Positions 8,870-26,212 of a DNA stretch of 64,000 nt are shown here, piece after piece. A program made the position numbers and the translations under genes. The DNA is taken from NCBI RefSeq assembly GCF_900104745.1, contig NZ_LT629732.1:3707981-3771980 (forward strand), in the 5' to 3' direction. This DNA is from Actinopolymorpha singaporensis (GTDB taxonomy: Bacteria > Actinomycetota > Actinomycetes > Propionibacteriales > Actinopolymorphaceae). Below the pieces are notes generated by a model, which saw nothing but the letters and a program-made list of their open reading frames with translations, was not told the DNA's origin and did not search any database. How positions within the stretch are numbered: position 1 is the first letter of the stretch; each line of letters begins with the position of its first letter.

Positions 8870-9298
8870 AGTGGGCGACTCGGCGGGGAGTGCACATCGA
8901 CCGTGCCGCCTGCGCGTGGCTGATCCGCCGCTACATCGACCCCGACCCCCACCTTCGTCTTCGTCGACGACCCCAGCGAGGTTCCGTCCGATGCGACACC
9001 GTTCGACATCCCAGGCGTGGAACTCTCCCACCACGGTGACGACTGCACATTCGAGACCCTGCTTCACCGGCACGAGCTCACCGACCCTGTGCTGTGGCGG
9101 CTCGCTGCGCTGGTCCACGAGGCCGACCTCGACGACGGACGGTACGACGCCCCCGAGGCGGTCGGCTTCGACCTAGCCCTGCGGGGCCTGTCCATGGTCG
9201 AGCACGACGACCAGGTTCTCGAGATCATCCGACCGGTGTTCGACGGCGCCTACGCGTACTTCCGTCGTGAGCTGCTACTGGGTAGGGAGCCCTCGTGA
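8866..9298 (+). pseudogene. chrB2: ChrB C-terminal-domain protein with a 1-base frameshift
   Basis: The frame from GTG 8866 gives MKWATRRGVHIDRAACAWLI then RRYIDPDP, the start of the ChrB C-terminal domain. At the run of five C around 8946-8950 the frame is lost. The rest continues one base on as FVFVDDPSEV, ATPFDIPGVELSHHGDDCTF, and ends at 9298 with the conserved helices of the domain. Deleting one C restores a protein of about 143 residues. A homopolymer sequencing error is as likely as a real mutation. The stop overlaps the chrA start (GTGA), so it sits inside one operon. Confidence 0.72.
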
Positions 9299-10716
9299 GT
9301 GCCGACGAGCAAACCAACACCGACTTGGTTCGTGGCACTGCCGGTAGGTCGCGAGGTACCGGCGACGTGGTGCCGTTTCGGCAGGCTGTGAAGGTGTGGT
9401 TCGCGATCTCGTTGCAGACGTTCGGCGGCCCCGCCGGGCAGATCGCTGTTATGCAGCGCACTCTGGTGGAGCAGCGGCGCTGGATCGGACAGCGGCGGTT
9501 CCTGCACGCGTTGAGCTACTGCACGCTGCTGCCCGGCCCGGAGGCGCAGCAGTTGGCGATCTATGTTGGCTGGTTGCTGAACGGGCTGCGCGGTGGGCTG
9601 GTCGCCGGGGTGCTGTTCGTCCTACCCGGCATGATCGCCCTTCTCGGACTGTCGGCGGTCTACGTCGCCGCCGGCGACTCCACGGTTGTCGCCTCGCTGT
9701 TCGCCGGGCTGGCTCCCGCGGTGCTCGCCATCGTCGCTCAGGCCGTGCTCAGGGTAGGCCGGCGCGCACTGGGAAGCCCTGGCCTGGTGGCTGTGGCGCT
9801 CACGGCCTTCGTCGCGCTGTTCGCGTTCGGTGTGCCGTTCCCCGCCGTGGTCGCGTCGGCGGCCGGTGTCGGCTGGGCGCTGGGCCACTGGCGACCAGAC
9901 GTCATGCCCGCCACGACACGCTCGAACGGCGACGACCACGGCACCGAACCGCTGATCCCCGACGACGCGTTGCACACCGACCGGCCCAGCACCGCCCACA
10001 GCGTCAAGGTGCTCGCCGTCGGGCTGCTCGCCTGGGCCGTGCCCGTAGCGGCGGTCGTCGTCCTCACCGGAACCGGCAGCGTCTTCACCGAGCAGAGCCT
10101 GTTCTTCTCCGGGGCCGCACTCGTCACCTTCGGCGGCGCGTACGCCGTCCTGTCCTACGTCGCCCAACAGGCGGTCCAGGTGTACGGCTGGCTGGCGCCT
10201 GGAGAGATGGTCCGAGGCCTCGCCCTGGCCGAGACCACCCCCGGGCCATTGATCATGGTCGTGCAGTTCGTCGCCTTCGTCGGCGCCTACCGCGACCCCG
10301 GGCCGCTCCACCCATGGGTGGCTGCCACGGTGGCCGCGCTGCTCACCACCTGGGTCACCTTCGTGCCCTGTTTCGTCTTCATCTTCCTCGGTGCCCCCTA
10401 TGTCGAACGACTCCGCAACAACCACGCACTCACCCACGCCCTCAGCGGGATCACGGCAGCCGTGGTGGGTGTCATCGCCAACCTCGCGGTCTTCTTCGCC
10501 CTACACACCCTGTTCGCCGACACCGCAACACTCACGCCGGGCCCACTCCGCGCCGAAGTCCCGGTCCTGCCCAGCGTCCAACCCATGGCATTCGCGATCG
10601 CTCTGGTCGCCGGGTACCTCCTCCTCCGCCGTAACTGGACAGTCCTGCGCACCCTCGCCGTCTGCGCCGCCATCGGCCTAGTCACCGGCCTCGTCACCAC
10701 CAGCCTCGGCCAGTAG
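9295..10716 (+). CDS. chrA: Chromate transporter ChrA, two-domain type
   Basis: The 473-residue membrane protein of the CHR superfamily has two homologous halves. The first begins with the FGGPAGQIAVMQRTLVEQRRW motif (quoted up to the Trp region, residues about 45-65) and has LPGPEAQQLAIYVGW. The second repeats it as FGGAYAVLSYVAQQAV and TPGPLIMVVQFVAFVGAY. Roughly 10-12 membrane segments are separated by a hydrophilic linker near residues 205-235. ChrA expels chromate using the proton gradient. Start GTG overlaps the chrB C-terminal gene. The operon is preceded by BlaI-type operators, an unusual control for chromate genes, where ChrB itself is often the regulator. Confidence 0.92.
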   Translation: MSADEQTNTDLVRGTAGRSRGTGDVVPFRQAVKVWFAISLQTFGGPAGQIAVMQRTLVEQRRWIGQRRFLHALSYCTLLPGPEAQQLAIYVGWLLNGLRGGLVAGVLFVLPGMIALLGLSAVYVAAGDSTVVASLFAGLAPAVLAIVAQAVLRVGRRALGSPGLVAVALTAFVALFAFGVPFPAVVASAAGVGWALGHWRPDVMPATTRSNGDDHGTEPLIPDDALHTDRPSTAHSVKVLAVGLLAWAVPVAAVVVLTGTGSVFTEQSLFFSGAALVTFGGAYAVLSYVAQQAVQVYGWLAPGEMVRGLALAETTPGPLIMVVQFVAFVGAYRDPGPLHPWVAATVAALLTTWVTFVPCFVFIFLGAPYVERLRNNHALTHALSGITAAVVGVIANLAVFFALHTLFADTATLTPGPLRAEVPVLPSVQPMAFAIALVAGYLLLRRNWTVLRTLAVCAAIGLVTGLVTTSLGQ

Positions 10717-10717
10717 C

Positions 10718-10766
10718 CGCTGGGTGTAACTGGTAGCTCGACTCGTTAGGCCCGAACAACCCAGCG
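10718..10766 (+). terminator. Inverted repeat after chrA, possible terminator
   Basis: Arms CGCTGGGT (10718-10725) and ACCCAGCG (10759-10766) begin 2 bp after the chrA stop. The loop is 33 nt and no T-run follows. It is a weak candidate for the operon end. Confidence 0.25.
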
Positions 10767-10878
10767 CAGCTGCAGCAAACGTAACCTTCTGCTGTGCTGG
10801 GCCGCACCACATCGGATCGGCTGGACTGCTGCTGGACTGGACCGGCCGTTTCCGATCGTGTGTCTCCTCGGAATTGTC

Positions 10879-11127
10879 ATGAGTTCCCGCACCGACCGGC
10901 GACTCCTCGACGCCGCAGTTGTGGCGGTAGTAGTGGTCTTGGCTGTGGCGGTTGGGTTGATCCGCCATGAGCAGCAGGTAGTCGGGGTGGCGCTGCCGCG
11001 GAGCAGCCAGGCCAACGGCCGAGCACCGACCCGTTCGCCACCGCAGCAGGGAACAGGTAGTGCGTATGGCTGGTGCCCGCCGGACAATCGTGGGCCCCTT
11101 TGCTACTTCACCGATCCCTCGAACTGA
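10879..11127 (+). CDS. Small single-span membrane or exported protein, unknown
   Basis: ATG 10879 opens 82 codons: a short basic start (MSSRTDRRLLD), one strong hydrophobic helix (AAVVAVVVVLAVAVGLI), then a polar tail that ends with two Cys in AYGWCPPDNRGPLCYFTD. The Cys spacing and exported position could allow a disulfide. It runs opposite to the minus-strand operon that ends at 11103 and overlaps its last 25 bp. I do not recognise a family. Coding is supported only by the clean membrane helix. Confidence 0.35.
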   Translation: MSSRTDRRLLDAAVVAVVVVLAVAVGLIRHEQQVVGVALPRSSQANGRAPTRSPPQQGTGSAYGWCPPDNRGPLCYFTDPSN

Positions 11128-11345
11128 ACATCCTCACCAAGGGTCGAGTCGGCGTCGTCCGACATCGGAGGTGACACCTGCACCGTGACGTCACCTGCCA
11201 GGTTCTTGGGTATGAAGCAGCCCCAATTCCCGAGCCGCATTTGCTGGCAATGCGGGTCACCTGGCGTCGGCCGGGTAGGTGCGGCCAGCGCCGGCGGCCA
11301 TGAGGACGTCGACGAAACCGACGCCTCGGGGAGCTCTGCCGTCAC
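11103..11345 (-). CDS. Small Cys-containing protein, last gene of the lspA operon
   Basis: The GTG start at 11345 overlaps the stop of the 851-residue gene by 4 bp (GTGA), so translation is coupled. The 80 residues are Pro/Ser-rich at first, then carry two Cys in PHCQQMRLGNWGCFIPKN, and end acidic. No signal peptide or membrane helix is visible. I do not recognise a family. The tight overlap is the main support for a real gene. A chance frame is possible. Confidence 0.4.
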   Translation of the reverse strand: MTAELPEASVSSTSSWPPALAAPTRPTPGDPHCQQMRLGNWGCFIPKNLAGDVTVQVSPPMSDDADSTLGEDVQFEGSVK

Positions 11346-13897
11346 AGGGTCACGTCGTTGGTGAGGTGGCCCGTGTCGCCTAGCGTCAGGCGCTCACAGA
11401 GACTTACGCCCGGGACCAGTCCGAGGTCCGTCGCCTCGACGCTGCGGTCGGGACCGATCTGCACGGTGGTCGGCCAGCAGGAGACGCCATAGCGGCGGGC
11501 GATGCTCCGCTCGGGATCGGCGACGAGCGGGAAGGGAAGCTGCTCACGCTCAGCGAGCTGGGCAACCTGCTGCGGGCCTTCTCCGTCCCCGATCCCGAAA
11601 ATGTGGGGCCGGTCCGCCCGACCCGTCTCGAGCGCATCACGCAGCTGGCGGAGCTGTTCGACACTCGGCTCAGAGCACGACGTCCAGAAGCTGAGCACCA
11701 CCGATCCGCCGCGCAGCCTGCGCAGCGCCAGCTGCCTGCCGTCGCCGAGCCGGAGAGGAGCGTCCGGCGCTCGACCGCCTGTGGGCACCGCCAGTCGCAG
11801 GGGCCACCAGGCGACCTTGCCTCCGGGCTCGAGATGTTCGTCGAGCGCCCTGGCGAGCTTCGCGGGATCGAGCGCCTCCTCGTCGTGCCACCGGACCAAG
11901 CCGTTGGGCCCGACGAGCACGGTAGTCGACCGGTTGGAGATCCCGAATGTTTCGGCCCAGCTGCCCGAGGAGTCCTCGGTCAGCAGCACGGTCGCATCGC
12001 CACCCAGGGGTGCCTCTGCGGCGCGTGCGAGTCCGCCCGGCCGTACCACGCCGAGCACGATGAGCGCGGCGTCGCGGAGTCTGGTGGCGGCCAGCGCTTC
12101 GGCAATGGTCCGCGCTGCCTCGGCCCATGGCCGTTCGGCGAAGTGCACGAGCAGGTTGGTGGGCCCCTGGCGCGGTGCGAGACCGGACGCCCAGGGATCG
12201 TAGTGACCGACGACATTGACCCCTTCCTCCGGCCCGCCCGCCAGCAGCGGAAGCAGGGGCCTGCGGCACGGCGCGGACGGGGTCGGCGGTCCCGTCAGAA
12301 GAGGGAGGAGTGCGACGACGAGGGGGCAATCCTCGGCTGCCACCGGCACGAGGCCACCTCCGCGGGTGACCCTGGTGCCCTGAACCGACAGGCATCTTTG
12401 GATCGCCGCGATCGGCTTCTCGGTCACGAACCTGTGCTCCTCGTGGTGACCGTCCCACACGAACCGGTCGATCGTCCCGCCCGGGATCCAGCTCTCGAGC
12501 GCGTCGGCACGGCTGTTGAGGTCCGCCCGCCGCACCGTCACGGGGCGGGACGGCGCCAACGCGACAGTACCGGCAACGACGACCCCGTCGGCGCGGATCT
12601 GCACTCCGGTCAGCGCGACACCGGGGTCAGCCGGATGCAGAGCGCTCATCATCGTCTTGAGGTATCGGCCGATGTCGAGCGCGTCGCGCAGATCTGCCGG
12701 AAGCGGATCCAGCTTGGCCTGGAAGCCCGCCTTGATCGCGTTGCGGGCGGCGTCATTGATCAGCGACTCGAAGGCGAACACCCCGTGCAGCCCGATTTCG
12801 GGATCTCCGACGAGCGCGGGCCGGACCTGCCCGCCGACGACCTGCAGCGTCACTGCCAGCTGAACCGAGAAACTGAAGTCGTCCGTTGTGGAAAGCGGCC
12901 CGACGCCATAGGTGATGCCGCCGTCGCCGCCTACCGAGAACAGGATCCGCCCGGGTTGCAGGTCGAATGTGGCGCCGTTCCAGTCCGGGCGGATACTAAT
13001 GCTCCAGAAGGTCCCCGAGCGCTCGTAGTCGGGTGGGAGCCCGCCGAGCAGCTCGCGGTGGAGCAGACTCAGCAGGTAGTCCCGTCCGACGGCGACCGCG
13101 AAGTCGGCTCCATCGGGGAGGAACCGCGCGCCGACACTGCCCGGGCCCTGCGGGCCGGGGGGCCTGTCGCTGAGGGTGAACAAAAGCATCGCCGACGGGC
13201 GCGCGCCCGTTGGCTGAAGCTTGTAGTCGAACCGATAGACCTCCGGCGGAAGCTGTAGCTCGGCGCTGACCGGCTCGCTGTCGCTGTGGAAGGCGTTGCG
13301 CACGATCCGCTCCACCAGGATGCGCTGCTGATCGGTCAGCGTGGTTCCTGCCGCCGGCTCGAACCGGACCTCGGATTCGGCGCTGTGGTCTAGACCCAGG
13401 AATGTCCTTCGACGCGGGGGGAGCGGGTGCCATTGCCACAGGACGGTCCGCACGAGCCCGGCCGTCAGATACAGGTCACCGTGGAGGAACTCGGGTAGCT
13501 CCGCAGGCGTATCGCGCAACCAGGCCCTCAGCCGGAGTCGGGCGCTGATCCTCGGCCAGCAGGTCGGCCGCCCCCAAGGACTGAGCGGACCTCCCCGGGC
13601 GACCCTCCTGACCGGCTCCCGGCTGCGCGACCAGAACGTGTCGGCCACTGCGTCCACCGGGAGTGCGACGGTCGGGGTGGAGAGTTGGACCTCGACGGTC
13701 GTGCGGACACCGGTCCGTTCGGCCTCCGGAATCGGATCTGCTGCTCCCCGGTAGGTGTCGTCGACGCGGACGGTCAGGCTGTGACACAGCCGCGGGTAGG
13801 CCTTGTTCTCGTTCTCGTGGATCGCCGCCAGGACGCAGTTGACCAACCCGATGCTCACCTCGGTGGCAATGTCGTACTCACCCGTGACACTGGCCAC
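11342..13897 (-). CDS. 851-residue protein of unknown function with two C-terminal thioredoxin-like domains
   Basis: GTG 13897 has a good ribosome site (GGGGAGG, 7 bp before), preferred to the upstream in-frame start at 13951. Residues 1 to about 560 are beta-rich and unrecognised. Two helical stretches (VSIGLVNCVLAAIHENEN near residue 20, and ESLINDAARNAIKAGFQAKL near 390) each begin long strand-rich parts, recalling lipid-binding TULIP folds (inference). Residues about 610-720 look like one redoxin-like domain (TTVLVGPNGLVRWHDEEAL). Residues about 730-840 are a TlpA/AhpC-like domain with VVLSFWTSCSEPSVEQLRQL and a cis-Pro region CWPTTVQIGP. The usual CxxC is reduced to one Cys (SCSEPS), so classic disulfide exchange is unlikely. 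No signal peptide is visible. Confidence 0.7.
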   Translation of the reverse strand: MASVTGEYDIATEVSIGLVNCVLAAIHENENKAYPRLCHSLTVRVDDTYRGAADPIPEAERTGVRTTVEVQLSTPTVALPVDAVADTFWSRSREPVRRVARGGPLSPWGRPTCWPRISARLRLRAWLRDTPAELPEFLHGDLYLTAGLVRTVLWQWHPLPPRRRTFLGLDHSAESEVRFEPAAGTTLTDQQRILVERIVRNAFHSDSEPVSAELQLPPEVYRFDYKLQPTGARPSAMLLFTLSDRPPGPQGPGSVGARFLPDGADFAVAVGRDYLLSLLHRELLGGLPPDYERSGTFWSISIRPDWNGATFDLQPGRILFSVGGDGGITYGVGPLSTTDDFSFSVQLAVTLQVVGGQVRPALVGDPEIGLHGVFAFESLINDAARNAIKAGFQAKLDPLPADLRDALDIGRYLKTMMSALHPADPGVALTGVQIRADGVVVAGTVALAPSRPVTVRRADLNSRADALESWIPGGTIDRFVWDGHHEEHRFVTEKPIAAIQRCLSVQGTRVTRGGGLVPVAAEDCPLVVALLPLLTGPPTPSAPCRRPLLPLLAGGPEEGVNVVGHYDPWASGLAPRQGPTNLLVHFAERPWAEAARTIAEALAATRLRDAALIVLGVVRPGGLARAAEAPLGGDATVLLTEDSSGSWAETFGISNRSTTVLVGPNGLVRWHDEEALDPAKLARALDEHLEPGGKVAWWPLRLAVPTGGRAPDAPLRLGDGRQLALRRLRGGSVVLSFWTSCSEPSVEQLRQLRDALETGRADRPHIFGIGDGEGPQQVAQLAEREQLPFPLVADPERSIARRYGVSCWPTTVQIGPDRSVEATDLGLVPGVSLCERLTLGDTGHLTNDVTL

Positions 13898-13960
13898 GTC
13901 TGCACCTCCCCTACTCGAGCCCGGCGGGAAGCTCGATCTTGAAGTCCCCAACGGCCCCGG

Positions 13961-14401
13961 CTAATCGGAGTAGAGCCCCAGCGCCTGGAAAGTGAAGTCG
14001 TCCGGCGACGAAATGCTGGCCACGAACCTGTACACCCAGTTTCCCGAGTCGGGCATGATGAAATTCCCCGTTGGCGAGACTTTCGGCTTCGGAACGCCGT
14101 TGACGCTCCCTGTCATTGCGCAGTTGACCATCCAGGCACCGATCTCGCGCTCGTCGAACGAGAACACAAAAAGATCCCCTTGCTGCGTCGCGGTCTTGGT
14201 CTCAGGTGTCGTGTGACCGGGCCGAAGGAATGTGAACTTGACGTCGCCAACCACCGTCAGGGGATAGACCACCTGAAGGCTGAACTCCAGCGCCGGGAGC
14301 GTGACTGGTTCTAGACCGCATACGGTGTCGCACCCCGCGAAGCCCAGGAACAGCACCACTACCAGCACCAGCAGTGGCAGGATTAGAGACAAGTTGGACA
14401 C
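13961..14401 (-). CDS. Predicted lipoprotein of unknown function
   Basis: From GTG 14401 the 146-residue product has a hydrophobic signal (LSLILPLLVLVVVLFLGFA) with lipobox GFAGC, so Cys24 would be lipidated by Lgt and cleaved by signal peptidase II. The mature part is mostly beta-strand, with FSLQVVYPLTVVGDVKFTFL and an EIGAWMVNCAMTGSVNG segment, suggesting a small immunoglobulin-like domain. The start lies 17 bp after the stop of an lspA-like gene, and the 851-residue gene begins 63 bp downstream. This pairing of a lipoprotein with its own processing enzyme suggests a dedicated module. I do not recognise the family. Confidence 0.72.
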   Translation of the reverse strand: MSNLSLILPLLVLVVVLFLGFAGCDTVCGLEPVTLPALEFSLQVVYPLTVVGDVKFTFLRPGHTTPETKTATQQGDLFVFSFDEREIGAWMVNCAMTGSVNGVPKPKVSPTGNFIMPDSGNWVYRFVASISSPDDFTFQALGLYSD

Positions 14402-14417
14402 GGCTGCCGCCCCTCCG

Positions 14418-14849
14418 TCATGCGAGGCTCCCCACCAGCACGACTGCGCCGGCGACCATGGCGGCATCCGCGAAGTTGAAGGTCAGTAGAGCTCGCAACG
14501 CGATGAAGTCCACGACCGCGCCGAGCACTAGCCGATCAACGAGGTTTCCGGCCGCGCCACCCGTGACCAGACCCAGACCGACGGCCCCGCCAATGCCCAG
14601 CGAAGACCAATGCACCACGACCAGCAGCCCCGCACACGCGAGCGCTGCAGCCCAGACCAAGATCGCCCAGCGGACAGGCAGCGCGACCACAGCCCCTCGG
14701 TGATTGAGCACCCACCTCAAGGCAGACCGCCAAGCAACCCGGCGCAGGTCGCGACCAGCGAGCAGCCGTCCCGCAACCGCCTTCGAGAGCTGGTCCACGC
14801 AGACCGCCACAGCTCCCGCCGCAAGGAAGGCCACGGCAACCTGAAGCAT
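14418..14849 (-). CDS. lspA: Signal peptidase II (lipoprotein signal peptidase), probably an extra copy
   Basis: This protein of about 143 residues has four hydrophobic helices. It carries the family motifs: VDQLSKAVAGRLL near the N-terminus, the catalytic-Asp motif GNLVDRLVLGAVVDFI, and the second catalytic-Asp motif FNFADAAMVAG. LspA cleaves the signal of lipid-modified prolipoproteins in the membrane. ATG 14849 is chosen over 14852 because GGGAGG lies 6 bp before it. The housekeeping lspA normally sits beside ileS or rluD, which are absent here. Its neighbour is a lipoprotein gene on the same strand 17 bp away, so this copy may be dedicated to that substrate. Confidence 0.85.
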   Translation of the reverse strand: MLQVAVAFLAAGAVAVCVDQLSKAVAGRLLAGRDLRRVAWRSALRWVLNHRGAVVALPVRWAILVWAAALACAGLLVVVHWSSLGIGGAVGLGLVTGGAAGNLVDRLVLGAVVDFIALRALLTFNFADAAMVAGAVVLVGSLA

Positions 14850-14852
14850 CAT

Positions 14853-15590
14853 CAGCCTCCCGCTGGGGACATCTCATCCAAGGTGCGATCTTCCATCTGG
14901 GCGACCACTCCACCCCGGCCACCGAACATCCGAAACGTCTGCCGCCATCTGCCTTCCCCACATCTGCTCCAGACGGGTAATTCCGTGCGACAGATGTTGG
15001 GCGACCGCCGAGAACTAACCTCCAGCGGTCACAGCACCTACTTACCACCCCAAGTCGAGCAGTGCGGTGGATTTACAAAAGGATGGGCGCGGCGGCATAA
15101 CTCGCAAGATGTCGTCGGGAGAGACCTCAACCTCGTGGCCTCAGTCTTGGCCTCATTCGCCTACGTTCGTCGCCGGGCTCATTGTCAGAGCTTTCTGGTT
15201 GTCAGTGGTTCAGCTTCGACACATCGGGGGAGTATCTCCTGGTTGCCTCTCGCCAACTTTCGGGGACGGCCACAGCGGAATGGCCCGCCGTCACGTGACC
15301 TCGAACGGCTGTCGTCGGTTACTTGCATTTGGAGGCAGCGGCCGGATGCATCCCAGATCTAGTACTCGCCCTCGATGACGTGGACCCACTCGACAACCCG
15401 ATTGCTACCGGCCGGGGCAGAGCCGTCTGCGCCCGTGAAGAGGAAAGCAGCGGATCCGAGTTCCTGCGGCACTCTCCTGTGGACCCGCCGAAGCGAGCGG
15501 CCCCTGCACGAAGGTGGGATGTACGGCCCGCCCCGGGCGCGGTGTTCCGGTGGCTGGGGGGAGTCAGCCGCACCGGCCCGGGGCGGGGTC
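14853..15590. other. Region without recognisable genes
   Basis: No frame here shows family motifs or a convincing ribosome site. A plus-strand frame at 15323-15649 has a plausible start (after GGAGGC) but becomes Arg/Pro-rich and overlaps the small zinc-ribbon-like gene on the other strand. I leave it unannotated. Confidence 0.4.
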
Positions 15591-24790: not shown

Positions 24791-26212
24791 CTACGGGAGG
24801 AGCGACAACAGCAGCTTGGCGCGTTCGATGGCGTCGTCGAGGAGTTCGACGTGCTGGCTGGCCCAGTCGAGTCCGGCGAGGATCCGGTGGCACAGACACG
24901 CCGCCACGACGTCCGCGCTGGTGAGTTCGCCCGCGTGCTCGACGACGACGCGCCGATGATCCGGATCGGACAGCGACGGCAGCAATGCCAGCAGGTCCGC
25001 CGCTACGGTGCCCGTCCCGAAGCCCTCCAGATCCACGACCGCACTGAGAGCGTCGCCGTCGAAGAGCATGTTGCGGAACGTGAAATCGCCGTGAGTCAGC
25101 TCACCGGTCGGCAACGCGGGCACCGGCTTGGGCAGGACGGCCAAGGCCTGCCGGGCGTACGCACTGGTCGCCGGATGGAACTCGTGCTCGCCGATCCCGC
25201 CGTTGAGGAACGCCGTGATCATCGCGGACCAGTCGCGGTCGGCCGGCGGGCGAACCGAGCGGTGCAGTTCGGCTGCGGCCAGGGCGGCGTCGAGTTGCCG
25301 CCGGTTCGGCTCAGTCGGAGACGTGCCGCCCGCCCAGGAGGTCAGCAGGTACGAGCGGTCCGCGGACAGCGAGCCGCAGCCGATGACCTCCGGCGTCGGG
25401 TAACCGAGCGTCCGTAGCTCCTGAGAAACAGGCACGAGGCGGTTGAGCTGCTCCCGCCACCACGCGCCCTCCTTCGCCTTGAGGACCGCGCGCAAAGCGC
25501 CTCGCCCCACCAGCACAACGGTGTCGGAGTACCCACCGGTCAACCGGCCCAGCACGGTCCACGGGCCGCCGGTGTGCGCGGCGATCGTGGCCAGGTCCTC
25601 ACGCTCCAAGAGCGGCGGAGGAGGACCGGGCGTATCCACCCGCAGGATTCGATACCCCTGCTTCGACGCGGCCCGGCTGGTCGGGAATCCGCCGTCGCTC
25701 AGCCAGCGCTGCAGGGAGTCGGCTCCCATTGCCTGCTTCACCACGAGCCAGGCCCGCGAGCCGGGATCGAGCCGCGCCAGCCAGTCAGCCAGCAGCTGGT
25801 GGAGCGCATCCTTGCCGATCTTGATCGGCGGATTGCTGTAGAGGCCGCCGAACCGTAGCGACGGGGGAACGTCTCCGGGCTCGGCGACCACGACGTTGGG
25901 GAGGTCGCGAGTGTTGGCGCGGGTGAGGTCGAGCGCCCGGCGGTTGACGTCGACCGCCCAGACGCCGGCCAGCGGCTGACGGAGCGCAGTGGCGACCGCT
26001 ATCGGACCGTAGCCCGTACCCAGGTCGACGACGCCGGTGTACGGGTTCGGCGCGGCGACGTCACGCAGCAGTACCCGCGTTCCCCGATCGATGCCGGAGG
26101 CCGCGAACACGCCCCGATCGGCACGAAGCTCGACCTGCACGTCGGGCAGGCTGAGCTGCATGGTCGTCGGCGCGGAACGACCGGAAGGCTCCACGTCCCA
26201 GTAGCCGGTCAT
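24791..26212 (-). CDS. Fusion of RsmC-like methyltransferase and aminoglycoside-phosphotransferase-like domain
   Basis: Residues 1-195 form a class I methyltransferase: SAM loop VVDLGTGYGPIAVA (62-75), acidic strand WAVDVNRRALDLTRAN, and the base-methylation motif SNPPIKIGK (126-134), as in 16S rRNA guanine N2 methyltransferases. Residues about 200-473 form an APH-type kinase fold: GGYSDTVVLVGRGALRAVLK, the catalytic loop THGDFTFRNMLF (HGD at 374-376), and DLEGFG (394-399) for metal binding. The two are in one uninterrupted frame. I have not met this pairing as a standard architecture. Fragments of other genes surround it, and the start ATG 26212 is near a regulator on the same strand. Substrate of the kinase part is unknown. 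Confidence 0.82.
   Translation of the reverse strand: MTGYWDVEPSGRSAPTTMQLSLPDVQVELRADRGVFAASGIDRGTRVLLRDVAAPNPYTGVVDLGTGYGPIAVATALRQPLAGVWAVDVNRRALDLTRANTRDLPNVVVAEPGDVPPSLRFGGLYSNPPIKIGKDALHQLLADWLARLDPGSRAWLVVKQAMGADSLQRWLSDGGFPTSRAASKQGYRILRVDTPGPPPPLLEREDLATIAAHTGGPWTVLGRLTGGYSDTVVLVGRGALRAVLKAKEGAWWREQLNRLVPVSQELRTLGYPTPEVIGCGSLSADRSYLLTSWAGGTSPTEPNRRQLDAALAAAELHRSVRPPADRDWSAMITAFLNGGIGEHEFHPATSAYARQALAVLPKPVPALPTGELTHGDFTFRNMLFDGDALSAVVDLEGFGTGTVAADLLALLPSLSDPDHRRVVVEHAGELTSADVVAACLCHRILAGLDWASQHVELLDDAIERAKLLLSLLP

Follow-up and report, generated by a model that had tools for sequence, protein, structure and literature searches.

An accessory signal peptidase II, an unusual lipoprotein and a TULIP-like giant protein form a putative lipoprotein-maturation cassette in Actinopolymorpha singaporensis and scattered bacterial genomes

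In a 64,000-nucleotide stretch of the Actinopolymorpha singaporensis genome (the window; C1:3707981-3771980 of the source genome, G000), three minus-strand genes encode an accessory signal peptidase II (LspA), a lipoprotein and an 851-residue protein, hereafter the giant. We interpret this cassette as a module that is dedicated to lipoprotein maturation, moves horizontally and includes a lipid-binding partner, a reading to which we give about an even chance. The sequences themselves show the recurrence of the same gene families, extra enzyme copies, an odd signal, retained catalytic Asp residues and a lost CxxC motif. The accessory LspA would mainly mature the adjoining lipoprotein, whose n-region is free of Lys and Arg and which carries Phe at position -3. 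The Lgt step would be performed by an accessory Lgt in most relatives and presumably by another Lgt in the source genome. The mature lipoprotein would tether a domain that varies between genomes (in four relatives, LamG) to the outer face of the membrane, where the giant would bind lipid or the acylated lipoprotein and act together with the latter. We infer that LspA processes its neighbour, that the lipoprotein touches the giant and that the signal-less giant reaches this outer-face partner. No description of such a module was found in a literature search of open-licence papers.

The giant is rare, with 10 copies in all. LspA, lipoprotein and giant occurred together in 8 of these 10 genomes (G000, G001, G270, G424, G354, G723, G810 and G905), and no LspA, lipoprotein or Lgt was detected in the DNA surrounding the giant in G374 (19.9 kb) or in G906 (18 kb). 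The steadiest link is that of the accessory LspA with the odd lipoprotein, which were together in 8/8 full-cassette genomes and jointly absent from both giant-only genomes. The lspA count was two in all eight full-cassette genomes and one in both giant-only genomes. A genome-wide PF01252 search of the source genome gave two matches, the other lspA being located at 5270292-5270705; the claim of an earlier sequence-only reading of this DNA, that the window lspA is an extra copy and not the only one, is thereby confirmed. A private processing line would be the simplest account of the link between LspA and lipoprotein.

G001, a genome of the same genus, has all three genes in unchanged order (protein identities and dN/dS values are given in Table 1). 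In the window, the intergenic gaps are 16 bp between lspA and the lipoprotein gene and 63 bp between the lipoprotein gene and the giant gene. When 19.9 kb of G001 was compared with the window, DNA similarity was restricted to window positions 11307-15169, and the three genes therefore form an isolated cassette. The sequence-only reading had described a four-gene operon that also included an 80-residue Cys protein overlapping the giant gene by 4 bp. The coordinates, strand and gaps of lspA, the lipoprotein gene and the 851-residue gene were reproduced, but the fourth gene was rejected: similarity to G001 ends at 11307, and the G001 frame is broken by a stop after 25 codons. Since it is not conserved in G001, we regard the 80-residue open reading frame (ORF) as a chance ORF. 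The co-occurrence and gene-order search that had been proposed for the four genes accordingly held for three of them, in the 8 of 10 giant genomes listed above.

All eight cassette lipoproteins start with a hydrophobic N-terminal run that closes with F-[ATIV]-G-C. Phe occupies position -3 in every one of them, and positions -2, -1 and the Cys agree with the lipobox. None has Lys or Arg within its first 10 residues, and a single Arg is found at -4 in two. A usual lipoprotein signal is described as having a positively charged n-region and the lipobox [LV][ASTVI][GAS]C (PMC8689077); the cassette lipoproteins depart from both canonical features (8/8). A Gram-positive lipoprotein pattern matched none of the eight, yet it matched two other window ORFs. 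Searches of genomic DNA were made with the pattern V-[LF]-[LF]-[LF]-x-F-x-G-C, which was derived from the cassette lipoproteins themselves. This pattern gave one match per full-cassette genome (8/8), always the cassette lipoprotein, the backward-pattern control gave none, and the giant-only genomes G374 and G906 contained no match. In a phylum sample of 396 genomes, 18 genomes matched the pattern and 6 matched the backward control. Four of the 18 were G000, G270, G723 and G810, the full set of genomes in this sample that carry the N-terminal part of the giant. At the other 14 loci, four matches resembled lipoprotein signals by eye, all with Lys or Arg, and ten did not; no LspA or Lgt was found at E<=1e-4 at any of these loci (2.0-3.0 kb each).

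The mature domains of the lipoproteins differ. In a scan that covered the window, G270, G354, G723, G810 and G905, Laminin_G_3 was detected in G723, G354, G905 and G810 and a weak fn3 match in G270. The window lipoprotein had no Pfam or NCBIfam match.

A neutral N-terminus could instead invert the insertion of the hydrophobic segment, so that the lipoprotein domain is cytoplasmic and serves as a membrane dock for the giant, with the Cys not lipidated. The lack of Lys and Arg in the first 10 residues (8/8), the Arg at -4 in two proteins and the start of the giant, which is not signal peptide-like, are all compatible with this topology. We nevertheless consider it highly improbable, as the segment ends in Gly-Cys in all eight proteins and the lipoprotein is in each case a neighbour of LspA, an enzyme whose catalytic Asp residues are reported to lie towards the outer surface (PMC6952399).

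The window LspA scored 70.1 bits against Pfam Peptidase_A8 (PF01252; cut-off 25). Its score against the NCBIfam lspA equivalog was 44.2 bits, under the cut-off of 73.95 bits, which marks a divergent copy, this cut-off being a naming threshold and not a defining residue. The catalytic Asp pair (VxDF, FNxAD) was retained in all eight accessory LspAs, including the window copy, which is a putative signal peptidase II and would cleave a prolipoprotein. A list of 14 conserved LspA residues was taken from PMC6952399, and the motifs were placed by our own alignment. Housekeeping copies had 14/14 of these residues in all ten genomes. Among the accessory copies, three had 14, another three had 12 and the remaining two had 9; the window copy belongs to the first group by alignment, with one additional residue within the NxG motif. 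In the LspA tree, accessory and housekeeping copies were on opposite sides (support 62/54), with long branches.

The extra LspA might instead give resistance to, or a bypass around, an inhibitor of LspA (globomycin or myxovirescin, for example), its lipoprotein neighbour being incidental. Precedents are the proposals made for globF and for the myxobacterial lspA3 and lspA4 (PMC9943842, PMC8689077). Moreover, the accessory LspAs of G270 and G424 lack 5 of the 14 conserved residues, and these residues are described as clustering at the bound antibiotic (PMC6952399). However, the window LspA has all 14 of them, ten chosen window proteins (4.9-26.2 kb) contained no domain of a nonribosomal peptide synthetase or polyketide synthase, and a resistance copy leaves the accompanying Lgt and the odd signal unexplained. 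Resistance is therefore a very unlikely role for the cassette LspA.

An Lgt-family gene was located within the cassette in 6/8 genomes, with none in the cassettes of the window genome and G001. In the Lgt tree, the six cassette Lgts were placed opposite the housekeeping ones, with weak support (76/77) and long branches as in the LspA tree. The source genome has two more LGT-family genes besides the housekeeping one, and G001 has one in total. LGT-family matches of the source genome at C1:2707298-2708035 and 4170038-4170448 are inside larger ORFs (~523-526 residues). In G905, from the Acidobacteriota, the Lgt adjoining the housekeeping lspA has a GCxxxGCC variant, as in the cassette Lgts; actinobacterial housekeeping copies have GNxxNxE. 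Because a similar variant thus occurs beside a housekeeping lspA, we do not call the cassette Lgt catalytically dead. The cassette Lgt in 6/8 genomes and the odd signal found once per genome both strengthen the earlier guess of a dedicated lipoprotein-maturation device.

The distribution of the giant was determined in seven overlapping genome samples (1,279 genome searches in total) and one collection scan. Among 97 relatives, 77 matched the giant, but only G000 and G001 did so over its full length; the remaining matches were within residues 662-843, the thioredoxin-like end. The same-genus genomes G002-G005 contained no full-length giant. In the class sample, the N-terminal 525 residues as query matched 3/296 genomes (G000, G270 and G354). 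A 4-row alignment query matched 4/198 genomes of the genus of G270 at E<=1e-12. In the phylum sample, 27/396 genomes matched, of which only four (G000, G270, G723 and G810) had the N-terminal region and 23 had the C-terminal part only. Of the 199 genomes searched in the phylum of G905, 16 matched, one over the full length. The classes of G723 (1/27) and G810 (1/66) each gave, at E<=1e-20, the giant already known. When genome_contigs was scanned with SWIP[GA]G[RT]I[DE], a signature of the family, six loci were recovered. Four belonged to an Actinobacteria metagenome-assembled genome (MAG; G723), Mycolicibacterium xanthum (G354), Mycobacterium sp. 1423905.2 (G374) and Mycolicibacterium elephantis (G424). 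The other two were new and came from MAGs, one of a Mycobacterium (G906) and one of a member of the Pyrinomonadaceae in the Acidobacteriota (G905). A separate collection scan, made with P0003 alone, gave no match.

Four gene orders were observed: lspA-lipoprotein-giant (G000, G001), lipoprotein-giant-lspA-lgt (G270, G424), giant-lipoprotein facing lspA-lgt (G354, G810) and lspA-lgt-lipoprotein-giant (G723, G905). The G810 giant lies in two frames (L075 4835-7500), reflecting either a sequencing error or a real split. In G905, the cassette LspA pairs with the G723 LspA (97/98) and the Lgt with the G723 Lgt (94/91), and its giant clusters with the G723 and G810 giants (97/98). The GC content of the G905 cassette is 0.59, compared with 0.52 and 0.54 in its flanks. 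This grouping and the GC contrast are consistent with the cassette having moved as one piece. The case is clearest for the Acidobacteriota MAG, where a binning error may also account for the cassette. The giant-only loci are GC-poorer than their surroundings (0.60 versus 0.65 and 0.57 versus 0.64). Directly after the giant, both giant-only genomes have an ORF of 227-230 residues (G906, L080 11607-12299; G374, L044 8424-9107). The two ORFs look distantly alike, with a non-significant BLASTP E of 0.22, and that of G906 has a weak Peptidase_M91 match (2.7e-4, 21.8 bits versus a cut-off of 25) and a HELAH motif. A phage or plasmid origin was considered and rejected: the 12 pattern matches in viral_contigs were not confirmed and the G723 giant found no plasmid match at E<=1e-8, the phages collection not being searched.

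The cassette genes could also be functionally unlinked neighbours that co-travel as neutral or selfish cargo. The patchy distribution, the lack of any G001 similarity outside the cassette in 19.9 kb and the two giants found without the other genes would all agree with this. It is still quite unlikely, since the same families are joined in eight genomes, two phyla and four arrangements, and dN/dS values are 0.23-0.53.

The giant itself was resolved into domains to varying degrees. Its C-terminal domain matched PF00578 (1.8e-15, residues 707-821), and ResA was its best Foldseek match (E 2.8e-9). The preceding thioredoxin-like domain is weaker: PF21274 was matched under the cut-off (E 0.014, 16.1 bits versus 27.5), and the alpha/beta secondary structure comes from a poor model. 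Of the two C-terminal thioredoxin-like domains announced by the sequence-only reading, the second was thus firmly recovered and the first less so. CxxC is missing at the thioredoxin active-site position in all ten giants, with SEPS in the window copy; for G810, this was checked in the separate C-terminal frame. A redox role, which that reading had also offered, is therefore not supported. In Pfam and NCBIfam scans of seven giants, only thioredoxin-like families rose above noise, and residues 1-545 had no convincing family match. The stretch 516-534 of the window giant has a hydropathy of 1.88; the maxima in six other tested copies were 0.94-1.47.

The fold of the 851-residue protein had been put forward for prediction. 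The full-length model was poor (predicted local distance difference test, pLDDT, 53.7), but the central region gave a TULIP-like result. Residues 250-545, modelled separately with AlphaFold2, reached a mean pLDDT of 66.7 and a predicted template modelling score of 0.51, with pLDDT of 73-86 through most of the strand core; over residues ~250-445, 10-residue means were 60-86, except for a first block of 41. At E<=0.001, Foldseek returned five matches for residues 250-545, namely BPI (two), LBP (two) and CETP, with E 3.0e-6 for BPI. The next matches were YceB, OrfX2, juvenile hormone binding protein and the mite allergen Der f 7. VIA Z values were 11.1 for BPIFA1, 10.0 for a chain of the OrfX1-OrfX3 complex, 9.9 for LBP, 9.8 for YceB and 9.0 for P47, the alignments having a root-mean-square deviation (rmsd) of 3-5 across ~140-190 residues. 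No fold match to viral proteins was found at E<=0.001. We conclude with moderate confidence that the middle domain adopts a TULIP-like fold, which points to binding of lipid or an acyl chain; the model thus lends strength to the earlier guess of lipid handling. Residues 1-250 may, at a guess, be a first TULIP-like domain. An internal TULIP duplication was not recovered by profile comparison of 1-250 with the next domain, where only 19 columns were aligned (E 0.059, not significant).

That the predicted fold resembles OrfX2, P47 and one chain from the OrfX1-OrfX3 complex also suggests another possibility. The giant may be a P47/OrfX-like accessory of a secreted complex, with the lipoprotein as its surface anchor and the processing enzymes serving only to secure this anchor. 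Two TULIP-like domains are reported for OrfX2, P47 and OrfX3 (PMC6791001), and the weak M91 metallopeptidase match directly downstream of the giant in G906 would suit such a complex. A sequence profile searched against the PDB, in contrast, found no such chain at E up to 10, and we regard this account as unlikely.

Several observations weigh against a dedicated maturation module with a lipid-binding partner. The signal pattern was built from the same lipoproteins that it recovered, so their recovery is not independent; all that counts is that it occurs once per genome and is missing from G374 and G906. These two genomes have the giant without LspA or lipoprotein, and the giant can therefore function without them. 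An Lgt is missing from the cassettes of the window and of G001, and the window LspA has 14/14 conserved residues, so that altered specificity is not demonstrated there. The separation of accessory from housekeeping LspAs in the tree is weak. As regards movement, the cassettes of the window, G270, G354 and G424 are within 0.013 GC of their surroundings. The giant has no signal peptide, and its contact with an outer-face lipoprotein needs some export route. The TULIP assignment depends on a model with the mean pLDDT of 66.7 given above, the top five Foldseek matches superpose loosely (TM-scores of 0.24-0.30 with rmsd 8.5-18), and Aha1, which is not known to be a TULIP protein, reaches a VIA Z of 9.5.

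A bolder version of the dedicated module may also be considered, although we give it a low probability. In this version, the cassette would be an orthogonal export unit whose private Lgt and LspA read their own signal class, poorly handled by the housekeeping enzymes, with one substrate per genome. A tandem-TULIP giant would hold the acylated lipoprotein or a lipid donor, and the whole unit would cross phyla.

The features of the locus are collected in Table 1. Upstream of lspA, no promoter-like site was found by a consensus scan of 14850-15169, promoter and terminator scans gave no signal exceeding shuffles, and Rfam had no match over window positions 10500-15500, this upstream region included. 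PADLOC gave no match on six proteins, and a defence-system reading was rejected.

Table 1. Features of the cassette and its surroundings (positions in the window)
Feature	Position	Strand	Basis
Accessory signal peptidase II (LspA), 143 residues	14418..14849	-	Peptidase_A8 2.9e-19; second copy in genome; both catalytic Asp retained; G001 protein 84% identical, dN/dS 0.53
Lipoprotein, 146 residues, mature domain without known family	13961..14401	-	No Pfam/NCBIfam match; G001 ortholog 76% identical, dN/dS 0.30
Non-standard lipoprotein signal, residues 1-24, no Lys/Arg, Phe at -3	14330..14401	-	Motif present once in genome
Giant, 851 residues, start not signal peptide-like	11342..13897	-	G001 ortholog 90% identical, dN/dS 0.23
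Giant N-terminal domain, residues 1-250, possibly first TULIP-like	13148..13897	-	Low-confidence model; non-significant profile comparison
Giant TULIP-like, probably lipid-binding domain, ~residues 250-445	12563..13150	-	AlphaFold2 model, Foldseek and VIA
Giant region bearing family signature SWIP[GA]G[RT]I[DE]	12263..12562	-	Conserved core of family alignments
Giant first thioredoxin-like domain, ~residues 575-690, no Cys pair	11828..12175	-	PF21274 below cut-off and secondary structure; weak
Giant second thioredoxin-like domain, residues 706-825, SEPS replacing CxxC	11423..11782	-	PF00578, ResA match, alignment
Conserved upstream region, perhaps containing promoter	14850..15169	-	~81% DNA identity with G001 up to 15169
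80-residue ORF, judged not a gene	11103..11345	-	In G001, frame diverges, stop after 25 codons

Elsewhere in the window, an ORF with a ChrB C-terminal domain overlaps a chromate transporter gene (9017-10716), likely a chromate resistance pair. One ORF at 24794-26212 encodes two joined domains, a small methyltransferase (MTS) and an APH-family phosphotransferase.

Descriptions of lipoprotein maturation usually treat it as a common pathway in which one Lgt and one LspA handle all substrates. Sorting enzymes such as exosortases provide private lines, and the cassette suggests that the lipoprotein pathway may likewise be divisible into private lines. It would also provide a natural test of which signal features LspA and Lgt read, and this question becomes tied to a TULIP-like, probably lipid-binding bacterial protein.

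The housekeeping Lgt-LspA pathway shares with the cassette the two enzyme families and the Gly-Cys junction. The cassette differs from it in having extra copies, a single adjoining candidate substrate and a signal outside the usual lipobox that has no n-region charge. As in the cassette, the second LspA of the globF and lspA3/lspA4 clusters belongs to a special-purpose cluster and supplements a housekeeping copy (PMC9943842, PMC8689077). Those LspA genes are described as adjoining antibiotic biosynthesis genes and have been proposed to act in resistance or regulation, whereas the cassette LspA adjoins a lipoprotein and a TULIP-like giant, in many cases together with an Lgt. Hybrids of lipoproteins with ribosomally synthesized and post-translationally modified peptides likewise make a special product through lipoprotein maturation, but the lipoboxes of their precursors are reported to be canonical and the n-region of DybA to be positively charged (PMC12636315), neither of which applies to the cassette lipoproteins. 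The C-terminal domain of the giant shares the fold of ResA/TlpA and lacks CxxC in 10/10 copies. Bacterial TULIPs have been surveyed in PMC6791001, where 'thioredoxin' does not occur in the main text, and orfX-p47 clusters in PMC7020563. Compared with P47, OrfX2 and OrfX3, the giant has a similar predicted fold (VIA Z 6.7-10.0 to OrfX2, P47 and OrfX1-OrfX3 chains), but it is set apart by the lack of a PDB profile match, its fused thioredoxin-like domains and its linkage to LspA, Lgt and a lipoprotein.

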